A DNA stretch of 46,754 nucleotides from the IMG/VR virus record IMGVR_UViG_3300025096_000038, positions 1-46,754 of that record, one strand, 5' to 3'. The stretch's first letter is position 1. Every line of letters begins with the position of its first letter. Origin of the DNA: a virus. Made by a program: the position numbers and the translations under genes. The notes below the pieces were generated by a model that saw only the letters and a program-made list of their open reading frames with translations, had not been told where the DNA came from and did no database searches. This document shows positions 2,068 to 24,025 of the stretch, piece after piece.

Positions 2068-2409
2068 TTATAGTTCAGGGTGCTCTTCTGCTATCATATC
2101 AAAGATATCAATCATTTGTTGCTCGCTTAATCCAAGAGATTCAACGGCTGTTTTTCCCTGCTCGGACAGCTTGCGAGTTTTAGATTTTCTTCCCTTTGAT
2201 ATTGACGACATATCTTCAACAAAGCTAACGATTCTAGTGTCTCCCTCAATCAACCCAGTGATTACCCCCCGAAAGAAGGCGCTCTGAGTTAGACTAGCTG
2301 ACTGGAGTTTAACCTGCATCTTTGCTTGACGGTGATCATTATCAACAAAGGTAATCTTTTTTGTTAACTTACCATAGTCGATTGATGCGTCATTATCATT
2401 ATCGCTCAT
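2068..2409 (-). CDS. Hypothetical protein, 113 aa
   Basis: Start chosen at ATG 2409, which forms a TAATG junction with the stop of the GMP-reductase-like gene; a TTG six bases upstream is less likely. The protein starts MSDNDNDASIDYG and ends with a helical acidic tail (LSEQQMIDIFDMIAEEHPEL). The centre contains a basic patch (SKGRKSKTRK). No signal peptide or membrane segment is visible and I recognise no family. The close junction suggests coupled translation with the upstream gene. Confidence 0.65.
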   Translation of the reverse strand: MSDNDNDASIDYGKLTKKITFVDNDHRQAKMQVKLQSASLTQSAFFRGVITGLIEGDTRIVSFVEDMSSISKGRKSKTRKLSEQGKTAVESLGLSEQQMIDIFDMIAEEHPEL

Positions 2410-3434
2410 TACCAAGTTCTCCCCATGATGTGCGGGTGACCTTCAGTTAGTCCAGATGTCGTTTGCTCAATGAACTGAGCTTTTGCATGCAGTTCCTCTA
2501 TGTTGCGGGCACCTGTATAGGAAAAGCCGGAGCGAATACCTCGTCGAAGGTCGTTAAGCACCACAGACACACTACCGCGATAGGGTACTTTGGAAGCAAC
2601 TCCTTCGAGGCTGGAGTATTTTCCTTTCCAGTCTGTTTGTGCTTCTTTAGATGCCATTCCGCGATATGTTTTCCATGTCTCGCCGTTAGAAGAACGGAAG
2701 ACCTCTCCGGGTGCTTCAGTGCAGCCGGCAAACAAGGAGCCACACATAACGGCATCTGCGCCGGCAGCCAGAGCCTTTACAATATCACCGCTATTTCGGA
2801 TTCCACCATCAGCAATAATCTTAACATTGCGGTCAGTCTTCGCGCACTCAAGGACTGTGTGCAGTCCGGGAACGCCATGCCCTGTTTGGATGCGTGTTGA
2901 ACAAATCGAACCACCGCCGATATTGCATCGCACACTATCGGCACCCCAATCAGACAGGTCGTTAACCGCTTCCAAGGTTGCGACGTTGCCAGCCATCAAG
3001 TGTAGATCGGGATATTTTTCCCTTAGCGCGGCTAGCGCCTCCTTCATAAGAATATGATGGCCATGGGCCACATCGACACATAAGAAAGCCACGCCCGATT
3101 TGACTAGTGCTTCTGCTCTTTCCAGATAATCACCAGTAATGCCAATCGCAGCACCTATATTAATGCCAGTATTCCTCGACAAAGTTTTGGCGCGCTCAAC
3201 AAAGCGTTGCTGACGGGCTGTGGTGTTATATCGGTGAACAATACCGCACCCACCAGACTCTCCAAGAGCAACAGCCATCCTCCCCTCTGTGACCGTATCC
3301 ATAGGGGAAGAGAAGATGGGAGTTGCCAACACAAGCCCTCGTCCCAAGTCGGTAGTCATATCAATCTCTGAACGAGAGCGGATATCGGAATACTGCGGCT
3401 GCAGTAGTACGTCATCATATGATAGGGTTGTCAT
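2409..3434 (-). CDS. GMP reductase / IMP dehydrogenase family enzyme without CBS domains
   Basis: A 341-aa TIM-barrel purine enzyme. Motifs seen: the N-terminal LSYDDVLLQPQYSD, the active-site loop GGGSICSTRIQTGHG with catalytic Cys178, the phosphate-binding DGGIRNSGDIVKA (209-221) and the C-terminal VPYRGSV and RSGFSYTGA. The length and absence of the roughly 120-aa CBS pair match GMP reductase (about 347 aa) better than IMP dehydrogenase (about 490 aa). The flap region (ASKEAQTDWKGKY) lacks the clear Arg-Tyr pair of IMP dehydrogenases, again favouring GMP reductase. It would return GMP to IMP or make XMP, adjusting purine pools for phage DNA synthesis. It overlaps the upstream gene by 4 bases. 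Confidence 0.85.
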   Translation of the reverse strand: MTTLSYDDVLLQPQYSDIRSRSEIDMTTDLGRGLVLATPIFSSPMDTVTEGRMAVALGESGGCGIVHRYNTTARQQRFVERAKTLSRNTGINIGAAIGITGDYLERAEALVKSGVAFLCVDVAHGHHILMKEALAALREKYPDLHLMAGNVATLEAVNDLSDWGADSVRCNIGGGSICSTRIQTGHGVPGLHTVLECAKTDRNVKIIADGGIRNSGDIVKALAAGADAVMCGSLFAGCTEAPGEVFRSSNGETWKTYRGMASKEAQTDWKGKYSSLEGVASKVPYRGSVSVVLNDLRRGIRSGFSYTGARNIEELHAKAQFIEQTTSGLTEGHPHIMGRTW

Positions 3435-13980: not shown

Positions 13981-15945
13981 TTAAATTATGCAGCTTTCGC
14001 CATCACAGAACTTCGTGCCCTGCGCTTCGCCACTATCGATTCGTTGGATCGGTGTGATCTTTTTGCTCATCGCTTTGTATTCCTCTTGTGAGATCGGCTC
14101 ATAAGGTGCCTGTTTGTAGCCAGTTTCCTCATACTTTAGAAAAGACACTGCCTTAAGGCGCGTTTCATACATTTCTAAAGCATCTTTAATCTGAGTAGCC
14201 TCTTCCTCGTTGAAGGTAACTGTGACTGATACAGAATTATCTGCCCAGTAGTGCTGGTATTGTGCTGCAATCTCCAGTTGCTCCCACATACTAACACTCT
14301 TCTTGCCCTTTGTGAAGTGGGGCTCGTGAATAGGGAATTCCACCACATCTGTGTTTGGCGTGTAGGCGTCTTCCTCCACCTTATATCCTGCCTCTTTGAG
14401 GCGCTCTAACACATTTGAGTCCTTAGAGAATCTGATGCGACGAATGTAGTACTCGCTCTCTGGAAAGTGTATTCCCGGTGTCGACCCGTTAAGTAGCGAT
14501 ACTGTGCCGGAAGGCTTAATCGAGGTCATCCTTACGGACTTGGGAATACAGAGCCAGTTAGAGTATTCTTCGTCCAACTCTTGAACGTATGCATAAGCTT
14601 TATCACACCACTCATACATTGTACGTCGTCCATGCTTATTAAACGCCTGCACTACACCAGACTGCGAAAGTCCAATGCGTCTGTTCTTGAGCATCTTTGC
14701 GTTTGTCTCTGGCCAGTGCGTGTTCGACAAGGTAATAGTTTTACCGTAAAGATATGCAATCTTTAGTGTTTTTAAGTAATCTTCTAGATCCTCGTGCTTA
14801 GCCGGGAAAGTCTCACAAAGGCAGCAAAGCTCGGCATCTTCCAGTTGCTGCTCTACACAGGGGTTAAAGCCGGCCACGTTAGCATCGTCTAAGCGTGTGC
14901 CATCTTTAAACCGTCCTTTGGTTCTGGCGTTGTTCATCCAGATGTATCCGGGTTCGCCGTTCTTTTGCGATTGCTTGGCATGCCAGGTGTAATCCATTCC
15001 AACAACAGCGTTGAAGGAGTTGTTTGAGCCCCAGCGATGATGGTATAGTTTTTCTTGATCGTTCTTCATCTGGAGATATTGCTTATCGTCGTGGGTACCC
15101 ATCGCTAGCGCGGCGGAACGTCGAACGTTTCCAGATACGACGCAACGTCCGATGAGATTCTCTGTGTCAACGATGTCTACAGATGTGATGTCTCCTCCGA
15201 CTTTCGAAGTGTACAGTTCGATCAGATTGCGATGGAGTTCCTCAAGAGGACCAGAGCCGCTCGATGTGCCGCCGAAACCCTTGATGAGGGCGCCAAAAGG
15301 CCTGATAGCTGAATAGTCAAACTTTGGCACCTTGCTTCCAAAGAAGAAGCCATCGAGAAGGAGGTGAACCGAATCCACCCAGCCCTCACGTGAGTCAGCA
15401 ATGATGTGTACGTCATCAGTGTACTGTGGCTCTTGAATCGTCAATGTGCCGGCGCCCTCTGTGTCGAAACCCACGCCAATACCAAGCATTAGTGCATCCA
15501 TCATCCATGCGAACAGATAGCCGCCTTTCTTTGCTATCTCGCGAGTAGAGCGAAAAGCGCAGTTGAATAGACCAGCGGCAGTCTTCTCTTCGACGAACTT
15601 GGTGCCCATCATCCAGAGTCCGCGTCCGGGCGGTGTCCACTTTAGGTGGAACAATCTGTCGTATGCGTCTTTTGCTGTGCGCTGTGCCTTTGAGTCGTTC
15701 CATTCCAGCCCCAAGCGCACAACGTGCTCTTTCTGAGTATTAAACATCCCCTCCACAACTCTGCGACATGTTTGGTACCACTCTTCTGAACCTGTGGCGT
15801 CTGGATCAAACTCGTTAAGCCGGCGCGAGTAAGTGCGTTTGTAAGTAACGTACCCAACAGGCCCCCAAGGCACATCTTTGTCTTTGTAGGGATCGACAAA
15901 GGAATCGGATAATCTGAATTTGCGTGTATTGGCTAGTGTTCTCAT
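13981..15945 (-). CDS. nrdJ: Adenosylcobalamin-dependent ribonucleotide reductase (class II, monomeric)
   Basis: A 654-aa enzyme that reduces ribonucleoside triphosphates to deoxynucleotides. Seen: LKWTPPGRGLWMMGT (101-115), FNCAF with Cys129, the radical-site loop NPCVEQ with Cys363, further Cys374, Cys375 and Cys377, PSGTVSLLNGSTPG with the conserved phosphate-binding residues, and a C-terminal redox pair Cys647/Cys652 in CDGESC. This is the Lactobacillus RTPR type, slightly shorter than the 739-aa enzyme. It needs vitamin B12 from the host, but no NrdB partner. The gene begins 4 bases after the helicase stop with AGAAGGAAA as ribosome site, so both are on one transcript. The thioredoxin-like protein at 3803 may regenerate it. 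Confidence 0.95.
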   Translation of the reverse strand: MRTLANTRKFRLSDSFVDPYKDKDVPWGPVGYVTYKRTYSRRLNEFDPDATGSEEWYQTCRRVVEGMFNTQKEHVVRLGLEWNDSKAQRTAKDAYDRLFHLKWTPPGRGLWMMGTKFVEEKTAAGLFNCAFRSTREIAKKGGYLFAWMMDALMLGIGVGFDTEGAGTLTIQEPQYTDDVHIIADSREGWVDSVHLLLDGFFFGSKVPKFDYSAIRPFGALIKGFGGTSSGSGPLEELHRNLIELYTSKVGGDITSVDIVDTENLIGRCVVSGNVRRSAALAMGTHDDKQYLQMKNDQEKLYHHRWGSNNSFNAVVGMDYTWHAKQSQKNGEPGYIWMNNARTKGRFKDGTRLDDANVAGFNPCVEQQLEDAELCCLCETFPAKHEDLEDYLKTLKIAYLYGKTITLSNTHWPETNAKMLKNRRIGLSQSGVVQAFNKHGRRTMYEWCDKAYAYVQELDEEYSNWLCIPKSVRMTSIKPSGTVSLLNGSTPGIHFPESEYYIRRIRFSKDSNVLERLKEAGYKVEEDAYTPNTDVVEFPIHEPHFTKGKKSVSMWEQLEIAAQYQHYWADNSVSVTVTFNEEEATQIKDALEMYETRLKAVSFLKYEETGYKQAPYEPISQEEYKAMSKKITPIQRIDSGEAQGTKFCDGESCII

Positions 15946-17384: not shown

Positions 17385-18383
17385 TTATGCTCCACCAGTT
17401 GTATTGGTGCATCCCTTGCGAACTTTATTCAACCCGGCACGGAGATCTTCCCAATTTAATTCGCCGAAGCCATCCTCTCTCATCATCTTAATAACATCCG
17501 TCCTGTTAAAGTCGCACTCAAAGTTTTCAATAGAATATCGTACGTGATCTTTACCCTGCACCGATAATTGGGGCGCATATAGCTGCATCATTCTGTAATT
17601 GTGCTCGATGAGCTTTCGGTTCTCCGTGATATTGTTAAAGATTTTAAGTTTCACACTCGTCTTCTCGCAGAATTCAATAACATCATCAATTGTGTAAATC
17701 TTTGAATCTGACAAAAAGTTCAAGCGCTTACTCACCGTCGCAAAGCCAGCCCCTTTAACACCCGGAAGATTATCACTAGTGTCGCCAACAATAGCGCGTG
17801 CTAGTGCCATATTGACAGGGTGGACGCCGGTCTTCTCAATAATACTTTTCTTATTGAGGATCTCGTTCTGGGTGGGGCGCCAGAGAATTGTTTCGTCGTC
17901 GCACAACTGCATAAAGTCTTTGTCATTTGAAACGACGATCTTTTGCCAACCCTTATACTCTGGCATCTGAGTGATAAAAGCAATCACATCATCAGCCTCT
18001 ACCTCTGGGAGCATAAACTGGATAATCGGCATATTGTTAAAATATTCTATGAGGCGTGTTTGTTGCCACATCTTATTTTGCAGTTCTTCGTCGTCTGTGA
18101 GGTTGTGGAAAGCTCGGTTTAGCCGAATGGGTTTCCGTCCTGCCTTGTAGTTCTTGTCTACGCTCTTGCGCTTGCGAGAGCCGTTTGGTCCGTCCCAAAC
18201 GATAACGATTTGATCCGGGCTTGTCTCGCGAACGTGTCGTTGCAAGATCTTAATGAACCCCTTGATTCCACCGATCGGATCTCCGTTCGTTGAAAGGCTC
18301 GGGTCAACTATGTATGCCCTCAAATATGCGTTCAAGGCATCAAAAATTAATATTCGCTTCTTAGTTGTACTAGTATCCGTCAT
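17385..18383 (-). CDS. 5'-3' exonuclease / flap nuclease (Pol I 5' domain, T4 RNase H type)
   Basis: A 332-aa nuclease. Metal-site and fold motifs: FDALNAYLRAY (Asp15), VIVWDGPNGSRKRK (Asp64), EVEADDVIAF, VVSNDKDFMQL, and the helix-hairpin-helix-3-turn region VGDTSDNLPGVKGAGFATVSKRL. It removes RNA primers and 5' flaps on lagging strands. Length matches the stand-alone phage enzyme (T4 Rnh is 305 aa). Since the polymerase at 27986-29170 lacks such a domain, the two genes together rebuild the functions of bacterial Pol I. Its start overlaps a 23-codon leader frame that carries the strong ribosome site. Confidence 0.92.
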   Translation of the reverse strand: MTDTSTTKKRILIFDALNAYLRAYIVDPSLSTNGDPIGGIKGFIKILQRHVRETSPDQIVIVWDGPNGSRKRKSVDKNYKAGRKPIRLNRAFHNLTDDEELQNKMWQQTRLIEYFNNMPIIQFMLPEVEADDVIAFITQMPEYKGWQKIVVSNDKDFMQLCDDETILWRPTQNEILNKKSIIEKTGVHPVNMALARAIVGDTSDNLPGVKGAGFATVSKRLNFLSDSKIYTIDDVIEFCEKTSVKLKIFNNITENRKLIEHNYRMMQLYAPQLSVQGKDHVRYSIENFECDFNRTDVIKMMREDGFGELNWEDLRAGLNKVRKGCTNTTGGA

Positions 18384-18441
18384 AGCACACCCCCAATTGT
18401 AAATTCGTTAAACCCGCAGCTATCAGCAAAACTGTCTTCAT
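18370..18441 (-). CDS. Possible 23-aa leader peptide overlapping the 5' nuclease start
   Basis: Directly after the strong promoter at 18458-18486, AGGAGGAAGG precedes an ATG at 18441 that opens a 23-codon frame (MKTVLLIAAGLTNLQLGVC...) ending in TAG at 18370. It overlaps the first 14 bases of the nuclease gene in another frame. The nuclease ATG at 18383 itself has only a weak GGGGG-type site. Translation of this peptide could deliver ribosomes to the nuclease start. The peptide is hydrophobic at its N-terminus. Not proven to be a gene. Confidence 0.5.
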   Translation of the reverse strand: MKTVLLIAAGLTNLQLGVCYDGY

Positions 18442-18457
18442 CCTTCCTCCTATTATT

Positions 18458-18486
18458 AATATAGCACGGGTGGGTGGGAGTGTCAA
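18458..18486 (-). promoter_or_regulatory. Strong sigma70-type promoter for the 5' nuclease
   Basis: The minus strand reads TTGACA (18486-18481), 17 bases, then TATATT (18463-18458). It lies in the gap after the 73-aa gene and about 80 bases before the nuclease ATG. Confidence 0.9.
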
Positions 18487-18496
18487 GGAGTTTATT

Positions 18497-18718
18497 CTAT
18501 TTTGTTTCCGTACTGGCCCTAGAAATTAGCTGCACGTCATTCGCTTCCTTTCTAATTATCTCACCCTTATGGAGAACACTCACAATCTTTTCCCAAGTGT
18601 GATACTCTGCAGCAACGACTGCTCCCTCTTCCCACCACTCTTCCCATTCAGGTGGTCCTCCGCGCTGATGTGGTATAAATCTTCTAAATCTTACCCTTAC
18701 CAGATCGCCAAGTCTCAT
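18497..18718 (-). CDS. Small SH3-like beta protein, unknown function
   Basis: A 73-aa protein starting MRLGDLVRVRFRRF and ending with EIIRKEANDVQLIS plus a short polar tail. The alternation of a GDLV strand, a Trp/Glu-rich turn (PPEWEEWWEEGAVV) and later strands is what a small SH3/KOW barrel looks like. A similar start (SGDLVKHKSIWHDYGVG) is seen in the 21055-21291 product. Many phages carry such small barrel proteins of unknown role. It is likely transcribed from the promoter at 19036-19064. Confidence 0.65.
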   Translation of the reverse strand: MRLGDLVRVRFRRFIPHQRGGPPEWEEWWEEGAVVAAEYHTWEKIVSVLHKGEIIRKEANDVQLISRASTETK

Positions 18719-18738
18719 CTCTATCCTTAAAAGGTATT

Positions 18739-18915
18739 TTATTTATCTCGGAGTTGCTTTTCAAGGCGAGCGCGTTCTTTAACGGCGCCTGCACCTTCTC
18801 CGAGGAGCGCATCTAGTTTATCTAGTTGCTGTTGTGCGGTGCGGTTTGAGCGCTCAAAGGCTCTCCCCTCGGCGGCTTCCCGGCGCCTCAGTCTATCTGC
18901 TGGTCCTCTTCTCAT
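18739..18915 (-). CDS. Small basic helical protein, 58 aa
   Basis: An ATG at 18915 follows AAAGGAAAGACA (good ribosome site) and opens a 58-codon frame: MRRGPADRLRRREAAEGRAF, then a heptad-like stretch QQQLDKLDALLGEGAGAVKERARLEKQL. It is rich in Arg, Ala and Leu, predicting a coiled coil. The spacing to the neighbours (about 20 and 27 bases) is normal for this genome. No family known. Confidence 0.6.
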   Translation of the reverse strand: MRRGPADRLRRREAAEGRAFERSNRTAQQQLDKLDALLGEGAGAVKERARLEKQLRDK

Positions 18916-18942
18916 TGTCTTTCCTTTATTGTTATTGTTTTT

Positions 18943-19029
18943 TCATTGCGGCACACCCAAGACAAGATAGCCGATGGCCATTCCTGTGAGTATTAGGGCA
19001 ATGATTTGGTAGTAGTCGGTGGGTTTCAT
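18943..19029 (-). CDS. Possible 28-aa single-span membrane peptide
   Basis: The ATG at 19029 opens a frame MKPTDYYQIIALILTGMAIG... ending at TGA 18943, with a clean hydrophobic span of about 17 residues. There is no ribosome site; the start of transcription predicted from the promoter at 19036-19064 falls on or next to the ATG, so it would have to be read as a leaderless message. It may equally be unused leader sequence of the 58-aa gene. Confidence 0.35.
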   Translation of the reverse strand: MKPTDYYQIIALILTGMAIGYLVLGVPQ

Positions 19030-19035
19030 TCTATA

Positions 19036-19064
19036 ATAATAGCAAAAAGATTTTATGAAGTCAA
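19036..19064 (-). promoter_or_regulatory. Sigma70-type promoter after the secreted protein gene
   Basis: The minus strand reads TTGACT (19064-19059), 17 bases, then TATTAT (19041-19036). It starts 12 bases past the stop of the 19076-19372 gene and re-initiates transcription toward the small genes and the 5' nuclease. Confidence 0.82.
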
Positions 19065-19075
19065 GAAATAAGATG

Positions 19076-19372
19076 TCAAGGGAATATGAAGTCCATTCGT
19101 AGACCTATGGAGTGTTGAGAGTACCAATCATCTCGACGTTTCTGTTCTAATAAATAAAATGTTTTTACCTTTACTTGTTCGTGGACTTTAAGTTGTGTGC
19201 CCATCAGTGTAGTGCGGCTGACAAATATGCCGTCCACAAACTTTATTTGCTCTGCCACATACACAGGCCCGTAGCCTATTTCGATTTTATTGCTGAACCA
19301 AAGAGGTTCCAATGCATATGATGATGAAGCACAGAGTGACATGACCATCATTAATGATAGAATCTTTTTCAT
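19076..19372 (-). CDS. Small secreted protein, unknown function
   Basis: A 98-aa protein with a clear signal peptide: MKK, a hydrophobic core (ILSLMMVMSLCASSS) and a likely cut after YA-LE near residue 21. The mature part alternates hydrophobic and polar residues (KIEIGYGPVYVAEQIKFVDG, QVKVKTFYLLEQ), as in small beta barrels, and ends in GLRMDFIFP with aromatic end residues. It would be exported to the periplasm or outer membrane. The ribosome site is weak. It directly follows the VWA lipoprotein gene, so both surface proteins are probably made together. No family recognised. Confidence 0.7.
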   Translation of the reverse strand: MKKILSLMMVMSLCASSSYALEPLWFSNKIEIGYGPVYVAEQIKFVDGIFVSRTTLMGTQLKVHEQVKVKTFYLLEQKRRDDWYSQHSIGLRMDFIFP

Positions 19373-19387
19373 ATGATTTAAAGGACT

Positions 19388-21037
19388 TTATTGTTGACAA
19401 TCGCCCATTAGTGTGTATTCTACGTCGATAGTTGAGCCGCCCTCTGGGACGTGATCTGGTTCGAAATCTACTGTGTTATCTACATGGTTGTATGTCCAAG
19501 TGCTGACGGTTGTAATGCCGTCCACCGTTACTTCAATTGTCTCTTCTACTGGTGTTCCAGTTAGTTCGAATGAAGACAAATCTTGTGAAGCGTTCTCTGC
19601 GAGCGTTTCAAGATGTGAGCCCCAGTCAGTAGCACAGATAGAGAGATAGATTCCTGAAGTGTCGATAGTCGCGTTCTCATACCTTGAGTCATATGACGCT
19701 CCACAAGCAGGCGTACCATTACTTGGATTGTCTGCCGCGATAGCGTGCATTGCTAAGTCATCCGTGTCCTGTTTTAACGACTGGAATAGGGATGTGTAAT
19801 ATGTATACGGGTTTCCCGACTGTTCGGGCTCGTCTGACACTGCAACAAGATTTAGCTTTGCATCGTCTCGATAAAATCCTTCGTTGCATCCACCATTATT
19901 TCTATTATTTGAAGATAATGCCGATTCGAATAGACTGAAGATTCTCTCCGTGTTCGAGCCTTGATTTGCACTGGTTCCAATCATCGTTGTAAAGATTGCT
20001 TGTTGATCAGATTCTGACATGTTATTGTCAATGTATGAGTCTCCGCCAAGAATGCATCCACTGTCCTCGACAACCACCGCGACATGATAATCAGCATCCA
20101 TACTTGCGAGTGTTGAGATAAAGGCGCTGAAGTTTGCTTGAACGTTAGCGATGTCTCCATACATTGAGCATGACCAATCTAATCCGAATAGAATATCAGT
20201 TGAGCCGTTGATTGGTTGTTCAAACGAGTCGTTCGATCTTCCATACTCCAATCCTGTTCCGTATTGAACGGTTAGATTGGATGGCGTTGTCAAGTCTGAC
20301 GATACAGTTGTAAGATAAGACGTATCGGAGAACTCATCCAACGGAGAATAGTCTACGAACACCTCTACTGAACTATTTGGTGGGAGAATCCACGGCAGTT
20401 GTCCGTTATTGGACTCATCTGCATCAAAATATAAATCTCCTGCCGTATTAAACGAAAATGTCGACACTTCCAAGTCTGCGTTTCCGAGATTCGAGACAAC
20501 GAGCGGAAGAGAGTCTTCACACCCAATGTACATTTGTCCGAAGTCATATTCAGCCGGTGAAACGTCAATAATGGGCGCCAAGCCCTCTCCCAGCAGTTGA
20601 ACCTCGGTTACCGGCTGGTCTGGATCGTCGGAGTCGATAAGGATGCTGTTGTTCTCCAGCGCTGCAGTGGTCGGATCAAACGTTATAGTAAATGATGTCG
20701 TTCCATCCGGAGGCACAAGGATTGAGCCGATTGCTCCGATATCGTAAACCCCATTAGCGTCGTCAGATAGTTGGAGGTCTAGAATGTGCAAGTCTCCTTC
20801 TCCGACATTTTGAACTGAAACAACTTCAGTTACGGAGTTTTCAGCACCCACTCTTCCAAAATCGACTGAGGCCGGTGTAACGAGAATATCTGGTTCTAAA
20901 CCATCTTTGATTGTACCGATGTTATCTGGATCTTCGACGATTCCGTACTCGTTGCACCCTATAAGTGGTGCTAAGGCGAGCAGGAACAATAGGCTTTTCA
21001 TTCCGTATCCTCGGACTTGTGTTAAATTTTTAAACAT
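19388..21037 (-). CDS. Large lipoprotein with two ASH-type domains and a VWA domain
   Basis: A 549-aa protein. A signal sequence ends in the lipobox LIGC (Cys28; the start could also be Met13). Residues 50-150 and 155-262 are two repeats of the ASH/choice-of-anchor-D type, each opening with I-x-V-(T/S)-P-A-x-x-DFG. From about 281 comes a von Willebrand A domain: ILFGLDWSCSM gives the MIDAS Asp287-x-Ser289-x-Ser291. The C-terminus (about 490-549) is a beta-rich repeat. This architecture is frequent in Myxococcota and related bacteria and is not a known phage structural part. It is probably a surface lipoprotein made in the infected cell, perhaps altering adhesion or blocking superinfection (inference). 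An AAAGGAG site precedes ATG 21037. Confidence 0.85.
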   Translation of the reverse strand: MFKNLTQVRGYGMKSLLFLLALAPLIGCNEYGIVEDPDNIGTIKDGLEPDILVTPASVDFGRVGAENSVTEVVSVQNVGEGDLHILDLQLSDDANGVYDIGAIGSILVPPDGTTSFTITFDPTTAALENNSILIDSDDPDQPVTEVQLLGEGLAPIIDVSPAEYDFGQMYIGCEDSLPLVVSNLGNADLEVSTFSFNTAGDLYFDADESNNGQLPWILPPNSSVEVFVDYSPLDEFSDTSYLTTVSSDLTTPSNLTVQYGTGLEYGRSNDSFEQPINGSTDILFGLDWSCSMYGDIANVQANFSAFISTLASMDADYHVAVVVEDSGCILGGDSYIDNNMSESDQQAIFTTMIGTSANQGSNTERIFSLFESALSSNNRNNGGCNEGFYRDDAKLNLVAVSDEPEQSGNPYTYYTSLFQSLKQDTDDLAMHAIAADNPSNGTPACGASYDSRYENATIDTSGIYLSICATDWGSHLETLAENASQDLSSFELTGTPVEETIEVTVDGITTVSTWTYNHVDNTVDFEPDHVPEGGSTIDVEYTLMGDCQQ

Positions 21038-21054
21038 GTAAATCTCCTTTTATC

Positions 21055-21291
21055 TTATGCTGCGTGGACGATTATAACGTCCATTTCGTAAGTTACGCAA
21101 TAGCCGTTAGACTCCGGCAAGTGAGGCGGGTTTGTCCAATGTACCCACCAGCGCATGTGCTCATCTGGATCGTATCTCAATCCCCAGGTTTTTATCTTTC
21201 CTGTCTTGCGAATTATCAACCCCACTCCATAATCGTGCCAAATTGACTTGTGCTTTACTAGGTCTCCAGATTTGATTCGTTCCGTCGCCAC
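21055..21291 (-). CDS. Small SH3-like beta protein with GTG start
   Basis: The GTG at 21291 is preferred: it follows the upstream stop by 1 base with GAGAGAG as ribosome site. The 78-aa product begins MATERIKSGDLVKHKSIWHD, then VGLIIRKTGKIKTWGLRYD and WWVHWTNPPHLPE, and closes with YEMDVIIVHAA. The GDLV start, Trp-rich core and closing strand suggest a small barrel. The product resembles the 18497-18718 protein in layout. Function unknown. Confidence 0.65.
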   Translation of the reverse strand: MATERIKSGDLVKHKSIWHDYGVGLIIRKTGKIKTWGLRYDPDEHMRWWVHWTNPPHLPESNGYCVTYEMDVIIVHAA

Positions 21292-21292
21292 T

Positions 21293-21589
21293 TTATTCGA
21301 CTCTCTCAAGAATTACGCCGCGACCAAAGCCTCCGGCGGTTTGTGCTTTTGTAAGTCCTGCCTTGGCAACCGAAGCCATTTTAAGATTGTGAATCTCAAT
21401 AAGCGAAAAGACCGCTTCAATCAGGTCTGCTGCCTCGACAAGTGAAGGATCAACCCGAAACTCTTCTAGTTCCTCTGACACCTTATTAAATAGCTCTCGC
21501 TTATGTTCAGCTACATCAGCAATATGATAAATCGGGGTTTTTCCGTCTTCTAGAATTATTTGGGGTATCTTATCTCTAACGAGTTTCAC
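21293..21589 (-). CDS. MazG-like all-alpha NTP pyrophosphatase
   Basis: A 98-aa protein beginning MKLVRDKIPQIILEDGKTP, the hallmark of a small all-alpha NTP pyrophosphatase group related to PRA-PH/MazG. The metal-binding pattern EELEEF (about 39-44) and EAADLIEAV (about 52-60) supplies the ExxE and ExxD residues. Such enzymes hydrolyse nucleoside triphosphates to monophosphates and clear odd nucleotides or alarmone precursors; phage MazG proteins are common. It uses a GTG start behind GGGAG and overlaps the upstream membrane-protein gene by 14 bases. Confidence 0.8.
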   Translation of the reverse strand: MKLVRDKIPQIILEDGKTPIYHIADVAEHKRELFNKVSEELEEFRVDPSLVEAADLIEAVFSLIEIHNLKMASVAKAGLTKAQTAGGFGRGVILERVE

Positions 21590-21794
21590 GCGGGCTCCCT
21601 GACCTTTTCGCTAATTGTAAATAGTCCAAAGCAACTTCACTTGTCTCTTCACCAGCAATTTGTCTCTCTTCGGTATCTCTAATGTCTCCAAGTTCGTACT
21701 TTTTATTCCTAATGTCATGGAGAATCTCCACCGCGAATGCAAAAATGCTATAAAAGAGAATAGACCCGATTAACAAATAAATAAACTCAATCAT
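21576..21794 (-). CDS. Small single-span membrane protein
   Basis: A 72-aa protein with an N-terminal hydrophobic span (about residues 3-23, EFIYLLIGSILFYSIFAFAV), a basic flank (RNKKYELGD) that suggests the C-terminal part is cytoplasmic, and an acidic/polar tail. It overlaps both neighbours by 8-14 bases. No family recognised; a holin or antiholin role is conceivable but unsupported because the endolysin is far away. Confidence 0.6.
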   Translation of the reverse strand: MIEFIYLLIGSILFYSIFAFAVEILHDIRNKKYELGDIRDTEERQIAGEETSEVALDYLQLAKRSGSPRETR

Positions 21795-22020
21795 TCTGTC
21801 CTTCCGCGGATTGTACCGTATATTCGTTTTCTGCTATTTTTACTAAGGTAAGCATCTCATTATCTCTCTTTAGTTGTTCCCAGTATTTCGGGCCGGCGAT
21901 GTGAATTTGCTCGTTAAGTGCTTTTCTGAACAGGCTCTGCAAACCCATTCCGTGCATCCAACCCCTTGGTCGAGGTAGATAGATCTTGCCATCTTTCGCC
22001 CTAATAAAGTTAGTACTCAT
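21787..22020 (-). CDS. Hypothetical protein, 77 aa
   Basis: The product starts MSTNFIRAKDGKIYLPRPRG and continues with WMHGMGLQSLFRKALNEQIH; the end is polar. Mixed strand-helix character, no cysteines, no membrane segment. It overlaps both neighbours (11 and 8 bases), typical of this island. No family recognised. Confidence 0.6.
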   Translation of the reverse strand: MSTNFIRAKDGKIYLPRPRGWMHGMGLQSLFRKALNEQIHIAGPKYWEQLKRDNEMLTLVKIAENEYTVQSAEGQND

Positions 22021-22300
22021 CGTCTTCAGCTGTTATAAATGTGGGAGTACCCTCGCCAAGCCATGCGCCTGAAGTGTTGTAATCGAACCATTCGGCAGCT
22101 TCCTCGCTTGAGCACCCAAGCCACTCCTGAATCGCATCAATACAGCAATAAGTATCGTAGGCTGCGACATTCATAGATTCAACTCTCGGCCAGTGATCAT
22201 CTGGCGAGGCAACTGCTCCTACAAGGGCTTTATCAAAATGTTCACGGGGCTCTAAGAATAGGGCTTCAGGGTGAATTTGGCTAATCGGCTGAACTGTCAT
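22010..22300 (-). CDS. Hypothetical protein, 96 aa
   Basis: An acidic protein with a central motif NVAAYDTYCCIDAIQEWLGC followed by SSEEAAEWFDYNTSGAWLG, which reads like a helical pair with three cysteines. No signal peptide. It overlaps the rhodanese gene by 4 bases (ATGA). I do not recognise the family; the AAEWFDYNTSGAWLG stretch would be a good search probe. Confidence 0.6.
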   Translation of the reverse strand: MTVQPISQIHPEALFLEPREHFDKALVGAVASPDDHWPRVESMNVAAYDTYCCIDAIQEWLGCSSEEAAEWFDYNTSGAWLGEGTPTFITAEDDEY

Positions 22301-22569
22301 TTTATACTTCTCTGTTTGTTGTAAATTCTCTTTGCTATCTCGAAAGACTTAATGTCATGCGCGTCATAGCCGAGCTTATTTAGCACTTTTACTATGATTG
22401 CACTGCGTCGTCCAGATCTGCAGAATACCGCAATCTCGTTCTCCTTTGGGATCTCGGATATACGGTTCATAATCTCTGAATGAGGAATGTTTATGCTGCC
22501 GGCAACGCTGCTCTCGGCTACTTCTTCTTCGCTTCGTACATCAAGCAGCGTAATTGGTAATGTTGTCAT
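22297..22569 (-). CDS. Single-domain rhodanese-like protein
   Basis: A 90-aa rhodanese domain. Seen: ITLLDVRSEEEVAESSVAGSINIP (CH2A-type start), FCRSGRRS with the active-site Cys50 and the following basic P-loop, and a C-terminal helix. The sequence CRSGRRS matches sulphur-transferring single-domain rhodaneses such as GlpE/PspE. It could supply sulphane sulphur for thiolation or act on redox signals. Rhodaneses are rare in phages, and its neighbours here are lipoprotein and NTP-pyrophosphatase genes, so it may be a host-derived accessory gene. Confidence 0.85.
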   Translation of the reverse strand: MTTLPITLLDVRSEEEVAESSVAGSINIPHSEIMNRISEIPKENEIAVFCRSGRRSAIIVKVLNKLGYDAHDIKSFEIAKRIYNKQRSIK

Positions 22570-22586
22570 TATTTTCCTTACTTGCT

Positions 22587-22877
22587 TTATCGACGATTAC
22601 GTTGCCTATAGCCGCGGGGTGGCGAACTAGGGCGTGGACGACCGTCAACGTACCTGATGTGAGTGCGGGGATATCTACTTAGCATGTGTCGCTGCACCCT
22701 CCGAAGCTCCCAGTGTGCGTGTTGCCAAGATCCAGTCGGAGTGTAGTGACCGGGTACCCAGACCCAAGCCTGAATATTGGGTGTAACTTGTGATATGGGC
22801 GGCTGTGTTGGGGGATGAGCATATGCTATACACCCAGTTGCAAAGAGCAACAATGTTGCTGTGAATAAAGTTTTCAT
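22587..22877 (-). CDS. Small lipoprotein with WxWVPGHY-type repeat
   Basis: A 96-aa protein with signal peptide and lipobox FATGC (Cys16). The mature part shows AWVWVPGHYTPTGSWQHAHW, which matches the WXXGXW/YXWVPGHW repeat of small bacterial lipoproteins common in Deltaproteobacteria/Myxococcota. The C-terminus is Arg/Pro-rich and ends RQRNRR. It should sit in the membrane facing the periplasm. The start overlaps the recombinase stop by 4 bases with AGGAAA as ribosome site. It is the second host-like lipoprotein in this island. Confidence 0.75.
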   Translation of the reverse strand: MKTLFTATLLLFATGCIAYAHPPTQPPISQVTPNIQAWVWVPGHYTPTGSWQHAHWELRRVQRHMLSRYPRTHIRYVDGRPRPSSPPRGYRQRNRR

Positions 22878-24025
22878 TTTGTTTTTCCTACTGGTATTGA
22901 AATGTCTTCGGGTTCTTCGTAAAAGTCTGTTGCGTTGCCGGAGCGGTTGCTAAATCTGTAAATAATCTCTTCGTCCATGATTTTTTCAACATGCTCGCGG
23001 AACTCGGTATCGCTATTAATTAGTGCAACCCACTTAGATGGTTGGAATTTCTTTTCATAATTGTCTGTTTTGAGTGTATACCACGCTCCCGCAGAGGTGA
23101 GACTGTCGGATCCCTTAATAGCGTCAAACCAACTTTCTTCGTCTCGGACGCCGATATCAGCCGAGCCCCACATGATGCGGAAAGCACAATTACGCCCCTG
23201 AGTTCCAAATCTAGATTTTTCAATCCTGACCTTAACCTCCGATCCTACGCGATAACCCTTGTCATCCAATACAAAAGCTGATTTAGCCTTTCTTCCTGTG
23301 AGCCAGATCCTTAGACTATATGAATAGACCAAAGCTTTACCACCCGGAGTGATATAAGGTGTAGTCATCGCTGTTATACGGGCGAGAGGTCCACTGGTAA
23401 TGTTGTCCTTAAGCTGGTTCAGTACGAGAAGAGTTGCTTGCTTATCTGCAATCGGGAGAGTAATCTTAGACATCCCCTTTGCCAGAATACGTGCTTTCAC
23501 CGCCATAGATGATTGGGGATTGAAATCACCCTCTACATCGGAAATAGCGGGAGTGAAAGCCAGTGAATCCCAGACAAACAGGATCTTCTCGTCTGTTGCG
23601 CCAAGAAGCTCCTCTATCGTCTCTAGCACAAATTCAACAGATGATGCCTGCACATACATAAGGTCATCTAAGACACAACCTGCAGATTCTAAGAAAGTCG
23701 GATCAATCGCAGACTCCGAATCGAAGTATACAACCAATTTGCCTTGCTTCTGGGCGTTGGCTGCAATTTGTGCTGCCATGTAAGACTTACCTGTAGACGT
23801 TAACCCCGCAATCTCGGTAATTTTACCGACGGGAATTCCAGCTATCTGACCTTTGCAAATAATACTATCTAACCACCTAGAACCTGTTGGGATCCAATCT
23901 TTTACCTCTGTCGGATTTGCTTCCGTTAAGTTGTGGGCGACGTTTCGTCCGGCTTTTTGGTTAACAAGCTTTCTCAAGTCTTGCATGGAAACCTTTCCGG
24001 GTTTAGTTTTGGCTTTTCTAGCCAT
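22874..24025 (-). CDS. uvsX: UvsX/RecA-like recombinase
   Basis: A 383-aa strand-exchange ATPase. After a basic N-terminus it shows ITEIAGLTSTGKSYMAAQIA with Walker A GLTSTGKS (74-81), VVYFDSESAID (98-108), Walker B ILFVWDSL (148-155), and a region resembling the L2 DNA-binding loop (TTPYITPGGKALVYSYSLRIW). Length and context fit T4 UvsX (391 aa) or a short RecA. It promotes recombination-dependent replication and repair. A sigma70-type promoter inside the upstream methyltransferase gene (24187-24215) probably drives it. It overlaps that gene by 8 bases. Confidence 0.93.
   Translation of the reverse strand: MARKAKTKPGKVSMQDLRKLVNQKAGRNVAHNLTEANPTEVKDWIPTGSRWLDSIICKGQIAGIPVGKITEIAGLTSTGKSYMAAQIAANAQKQGKLVVYFDSESAIDPTFLESAGCVLDDLMYVQASSVEFVLETIEELLGATDEKILFVWDSLAFTPAISDVEGDFNPQSSMAVKARILAKGMSKITLPIADKQATLLVLNQLKDNITSGPLARITAMTTPYITPGGKALVYSYSLRIWLTGRKAKSAFVLDDKGYRVGSEVKVRIEKSRFGTQGRNCAFRIMWGSADIGVRDEESWFDAIKGSDSLTSAGAWYTLKTDNYEKKFQPSKWVALINSDTEFREHVEKIMDEEIIYRFSNRSGNATDFYEEPEDISIPVGKTK

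Follow-up and report, generated by a model that had tools for sequence, protein, structure and literature searches.

The gene at positions 19,388 to 21,037 of the DNA analysed here (a 46.8-kb IMG/VR virus record, hereafter the window) encodes a MIDAS-bearing lipoprotein that was almost certainly captured from Myxococcota. The best explanation overall, to which we would assign slightly less than an even chance, is that this captured surface lipoprotein is kept by selection, is displayed on the infected cell and blocks the adsorption of further phages. In Bdellovibrio and the myxobacteria, predation and gliding are driven by MIDAS lipoproteins of the cell surface, whose repeated capture by uncultured phages represents a host clue for a large virus group without a named host; the claim that follows is that such phages would change how the infected cell sticks or is recognised. 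By way of such integrin-like sticking proteins, the viruses that captured them probably remodel the outside of infected cells. To our knowledge, T5 Llp and the other surface lipoproteins so far described from phages are small proteins with no relation to the window protein.

The open reading frame of the lipoprotein gene runs from 21,037 to 19,388 on the minus strand, with an ATG start and 549 codons, while the plus-strand reading of the same positions contains 40 stops. A first-pass annotation of the sequence had reported a lipobox (LIGC), two ASH repeats and a MIDAS motif (DWSCS), all of which are present on the minus strand, as follows:

19388..21037, minus strand: MIDAS/VWA lipoprotein gene, 549 aa (open reading frame, domains and end-to-end orthologues)
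21044..21049, minus strand: Shine-Dalgarno sequence AAGGAG ahead of the lipoprotein ATG (from the sequence)
20954..21037, minus strand: predicted signal peptide with lipobox LIGC, Cys28 at 20956-20954 (Cys28 invariant in 23 aligned proteins)
20579..20893, minus strand: ASH/choice-of-anchor-D domain 1, residues 49-153 (domain models; beta sandwich in the AlphaFold model)
20249..20569, minus strand: ASH/choice-of-anchor-D domain 2, residues 157-263 (domain models; beta sandwich in the AlphaFold model)
19583..20209, minus strand: VWA domain, residues 277-485 (strands alternate with helices in the AlphaFold model; integrin beta matches; homology)
20165..20179, minus strand: MIDAS motif D-W-S-C-S, residues 287-291 (D287, S289 and S291 conserved)
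19391..19582, minus strand: C-terminal small beta domain, residues 486-549 (AlphaFold model)

By its LIGC lipobox, which follows the signal peptide and whose cysteine is invariant, the product is a bacterial lipoprotein for which lipid processing is predicted, a type II signal peptide leading to lipidation. The two domain repeats carry I-L-V-T-P-A-S-V-D-F-G (residues 51-61) and I-D-V-S-P-A-E-Y-D-F-G (residues 157-167), and the protein exceeded the cutoffs of the choice-of-anchor D model NF012200 (1.7e-21, 76.8 bits against 45), the HYDIN/VesB Ig model PF22544 (6.5e-14, 52.4 bits against 25.5) and the ASH model PF15780 (2e-9, 37.9 bits against 27). The Pfam VWA models gave no match at E 0.1, although viral relatives of the lipoprotein do match the VWA model PF00092. 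Its identification as a VWA/MIDAS protein is based on the DxSxS motif and on a VWA fold deduced from full-length homology, the AlphaFold model and fold matches to integrin beta. An alignment of 20 sequences shows full or almost full conservation of residues D287, S289, S291, E364 and D402; a MIDAS binds its ligand through a metal ion. In the AlphaFold model (mean pLDDT 83.5; pTM 0.49, so that domain packing is uncertain), two beta sandwiches are followed by a VWA-like domain and, at the C-terminus, a beta element; Foldseek matched the model to HYDIN, Cep192 SPD-2 and integrin beta chains. Papain, also found among the PDB matches, was dismissed as chance.

Neither PHROGs nor a set of 50,697 phage records yielded a homologue of the lipoprotein, in agreement with the earlier view of a lipoprotein without identity as a known virion part, and phage and plasmid collections contained no useful homologue. 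Pattern scans with a single protein, which required exact 8-residue matches, gave nothing in either viral or genome contigs; relatives were then recovered with an alignment query and with a MIDAS pattern of degenerate form. The degenerate pattern yielded 36 stretches over 84,980 species, all titled as Deltaproteobacteria, Myxococcota, Polyangia, uncultured proteobacteria or bacterium, or as wrongly titled metagenome bins. Three bins (L093, L094 and L095) are titled Klebsiella pneumoniae yet contain Myxococcota-type MIDAS proteins, and their titles are probably wrong. Full-length orthologues with 42-56% identity were identified in 39 of 63 genomes of one uncultured Myxococcota order at E<=1e-60, and all 24 sampled genomes of the phylum with E<1e-100 fall within that same order (two match lists compared). 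Six genomes searched in full each contain 14-34 matches at E<=0.001. The orthologues align end to end, from the lipobox to the C-terminal Cys, and the bacterial neighbourhoods that were read are chromosomal: the L087 locus adjoins methionyl-tRNA synthetase, and that of L194 an apparent protoporphyrinogen oxidase and a glycogen-debranching enzyme (both named by eye).

By maximum likelihood, the window protein is paired with its orthologue in L008 inside a 100/100 clade of bacterial orthologues, nearest to L138, L139 and L156 (82/69, or 92/91 with more focused sampling); end-to-end homology and this nesting place it among the Myxococcota ASH-ASH-VWA lipoproteins. The chromosomal members (L138, L139, L156 and L157; G183, G078, G291 and G299) share its architecture, lipobox, MIDAS and C-terminal domain at 52-56% identity over the whole length, whereas the window copy is phage-encoded, has a GC content of 45% and is a single gene in a cargo island. 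The homologue searches and tree placement thus bear out the proposed capture from Myxococcota-type bacteria; the outcome that the first-pass annotation had named as counting against its reading, namely nearest relatives that are all phage tail or capsid proteins, was not what the searches returned. The donor order likewise makes the gene a clue to host identity, as had been suggested. Superinfection exclusion, adhesion and prey contact, which the annotation had also named, are candidate roles. Since a search of 269 Myxococcota genomes, run without a positive control, found no relatives of the phage RecA, the host was deduced from the donor; a Myxococcota host is likely on the basis of the donor order, the separate captures and the neighbouring lipoproteins described below.

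The lipoprotein gene is located among replication genes, outside the structural module, in an island with the following features:

18384..22873, no strand: cargo island of variable content, bordered by the exonuclease gene and uvsX/recA (gap comparison with relatives)
22874..24025, minus strand: UvsX/RecA-like recombinase, upstream border of the island (domain and family matches)
17385..18383, minus strand: 5'-3' exonuclease, downstream border of the island (domain match)
19076..19372, minus strand: 98-aa putative exported protein, directly downstream of the lipoprotein gene (no family found)

The window further encodes a tail sheath, DnaE and a DnaB-type helicase. The earlier label of 'T4-like' is borne out by the UvsX-like recombinase and by the tail sheath but not by the replicases, which are of the DnaE and PolA types with none of T4 gp43 type. 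ClpP, IMP dehydrogenase, a B12-dependent ribonucleotide reductase and a rhodanese are also encoded (134-790, 2409-3434, 13981-15945 and 22297-22569, respectively). The gap between exonuclease and uvsX/recA spans 14-1889 b in 60 more distant relatives and 3.7-4.8 kb in the window's clade only, and the island differs among phages with 97-99% identical RecA. In L003, L004 and L005 the first 7 and last 30-31 codons of the lipoprotein gene are fused in frame to encode 38 aa (MFKHLTQADNTVDFEPDHVPEGGSTIDIQYTIMGDCQQ), the part left of the C-terminal beta domain being its last 30 residues. This remnant (L005:13050-13166, also in L003 and L004) is thus found in phages with 99% identical RecA, and the stub indicates that the gene was lost, rather than never gained, in one branch. 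A fatty-acid hydroxylase gene, likewise of envelope type, replaces the lipoprotein gene in L006. At the same place, L008 carries an orthologue that is truncated where the contig stops, with 91% identity over 129 aa, and L009 the first codons of an orthologue. Since near-identical phages possess a stub or a replacement, the lipoprotein gene is dispensable cargo.

As regards the remainder of the island, the gene for the putative exported 98-aa protein is missing from L005, and a strong sigma-70-like promoter (TTGACA-18-TAAAAT) is present just after this gene at 19079-19050 on the minus strand; promoter-like sites between 18300 and 22600 number 16, against a shuffled mean of 7.6. A second small lipoprotein, at 22587-22877, has a lipobox (ATGC) and a WVWVPGHYTPTG motif and is conserved in L005; a search for homologues in the donor order was empty, and this lipoprotein therefore adds nothing to the case for the host.

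The GC content of the lipoprotein gene (45.2%, with GC3 at 42%) resembles that of the phage (46.4%) rather than that of the donor loci (about 67%), and over the 148 codons shared with L008, which cover the N-terminal third only, dN/dS is 0.054 with a dS of 1.30 (recA 0.027). Phage-like GC and low dN/dS therefore point to an old capture in which at least the N-terminal part is under purifying selection, and from these sequence comparisons we regard the gene as an old capture kept by selection. The phylogeny that had been proposed to date the transfer upheld the bacterial origin, by the 100/100 clade, but the capture is old rather than fresh. An alternative in which the gene entered from the host by drift and is now disappearing as a neutral passenger would fit the in-frame loss to 38 codons and the replacement in L006; it is nevertheless very improbable given the dN/dS value, a MIDAS and lipobox that are intact after long divergence, and repeated capture of the family. 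Contamination, or a mis-binned bacterial contig, might be suspected from the bacterial type of the product, but its probability is negligible and it is refuted by shared synteny: the GC content is 45% rather than the 67% of the donors, phage genes flank both sides, and the orthologue occupies the same place in L008 and L009 with a scar in three other contigs.

An alignment search identified 35 further viral loci with relatives, and a short-form alignment (A4) at least 236 viral contigs with a VWA lipoprotein, although most viral contigs with relatives are fragments; going by the IMG identifiers, the source samples are probably largely marine. The short form (L159-L193 and L198-L277; e.g. L175:9815-10825) is a VWA/MIDAS lipoprotein of approximately 330 aa without ASH domains and has no PHROG or cultured-phage match. 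It resembles the window protein in its lipobox, VWA domain, C-terminal beta domain and occurrence in uncultured phages, but differs in its size, its lack of ASH domains, its separate well-supported clade and its frequent position beside an exported trypsin-like protease. In the VWA-domain tree the virus label changes 5 times, at least 3 of these changes being forced by well-supported (starred) branches; the short form represents one clade, while the window protein, L159, L160-162, L163 and L165 are placed elsewhere among Myxococcota sequences. As judged from this tree, viruses captured VWA lipoproteins on at least three separate occasions.

A full-length copy at 47% identity is present in L298, a 50.9-kb relative (RecA 54%, DnaE 51%). 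A single capture uniting this copy and the window pair in one clade was rejected (AU p = 0.009). The L298 gene is followed by one for a second lipoprotein with a PKD-like domain, which overlaps its end by four bases; of 60 genomes from the same Myxococcota order, 58 encode a homologue of this PKD lipoprotein (best 56-60%). The two lipoproteins (VWA then PKD, L298:8022-10534) have nearly the same signal peptide, MI[NS]RI.FLYYLAAC[TS]EY, and are encoded just downstream of two tRNA-like genes. Among 115 viral loci, the VWA gene adjoins that of a trypsin-like protein with a conserved triad (TA.H, D, G[CS]SGS) in 61, the members read having a signal peptide, and a redoxin-like protein, often with a lipobox, is encoded nearby in 18. 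Repeated captures and neighbouring exported genes, as read from these sequences, suggest selection for surface proteins.

A role on the virion, where the MIDAS might for instance bind a receptor, or in virion assembly was also considered since VWA-fold proteins exist in other viruses, the L159 gene adjoins a putative terminase gene (named by eye) and the L233 copy lies inside a tail module. Such a role is improbable because the window gene lies in the replication region, is absent from near-identical sister phages and encodes a signal peptide and lipobox that would direct the product to the membrane; in addition, no viral structure among the best 50 matches covers the full architecture.

The preferred reading, namely display on the infected cell, may be set out as a sequence of events. 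A contractile-tailed, T4-related phage would have taken the gene from a Myxococcota host and would produce the lipoprotein during infection along with the products of its replication region; the host would then export it, lipidate Cys28 and sort it to the outer membrane, where the two Ig-like ASH domains would hold out the metal-dependent MIDAS binding head. The host itself would encode 14-34 paralogues, which the phage protein would most likely compete with or displace on the surface, so that neither the infected cell nor the lysis debris would adsorb further phages (superinfection exclusion by receptor competition). Export of the lipoprotein in infected cells is very probable from its signal sequence, and remodelling of the cell surface through display and ligand binding is reasonably probable. 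Superinfection exclusion specifically is our best single guess, although a tentative one, and is ranked first because phage lipoproteins with such a function exist: T5 Llp jams the FhuA receptor and stops further T5 infection (PMC9586334). T5 Llp/Cor (PMC9586334) and the window protein are both phage-encoded lipoproteins expected in the host outer membrane. However, Llp is small, adjoins the receptor-binding gene, acts on FhuA and lacks MIDAS and ASH domains, whereas the window protein has 549 aa and is encoded in the recA-exonuclease island, outside the small size and gene position that characterise Llp/Cor. The loss of the gene from near relatives also speaks against exclusion.

Altered adhesion or motility is ranked second and is rather unlikely: with the lipoprotein, infected cells would adhere or behave differently (in clumping, surface attachment, prey contact or gliding), resulting in more contact with new hosts or delayed detachment, with adsorption unblocked. 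Its nearest characterised relatives are indeed adhesion and motility lipoproteins. Bd0875 of Bdellovibrio is located at the predator-prey junction, and its function is abolished by the MIDAS aspartate change D66A (PMC11003981), and CglB and CglD are gliding lipoproteins of Myxococcus xanthus (PMC4488436; PMC12282271); the NCBIfam models MIDASAdhsBdello and CglD match 20/20 and 17/20 relatives, respectively. The window protein shares with the Bd0875/MIDAS-family adhesins (NF052240) the lipobox, a VWA domain with DxSxS and a small beta domain at the chain end, but it has two added ASH domains and no predator context, and its match to this equivalog model is weak (4.2e-5, 22.9 bits, far under the cutoff of 700). 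Similarly, CglB and CglD (NF033765) are predicted VWA-bearing outer-membrane lipoproteins, yet the window protein gave no match to the CglD model at E 0.01 and gliding genes are absent near its gene. The lipid-enzyme cargo of the island gives no indication of adhesion either.

The open-licence literature searched contained no report of this phage lipoprotein family. It is possible, at somewhat under even probability, that uncultured T4-related phages of Myxococcota-like bacteria share a recurring envelope module, in which a MIDAS lipoprotein is often accompanied by an exported trypsin-like protease and in some cases by a redoxin lipoprotein, and which was captured from hosts several times and remodels the surface of the infected cell; if so, it would represent a class of phage-encoded metal-dependent adhesins undescribed in that literature. 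In L161, one of the viral contigs with a VWA lipoprotein, at least 8 different proteins start with MKLL.E.WR.Y.NE (e.g. at 1150, 1808, 2239, 4714, 5336, 7556, 8003 and 11961), and by analogy with the T4 capsid targeting sequence we would guess that this shared N-terminus may be a head-targeting tag.
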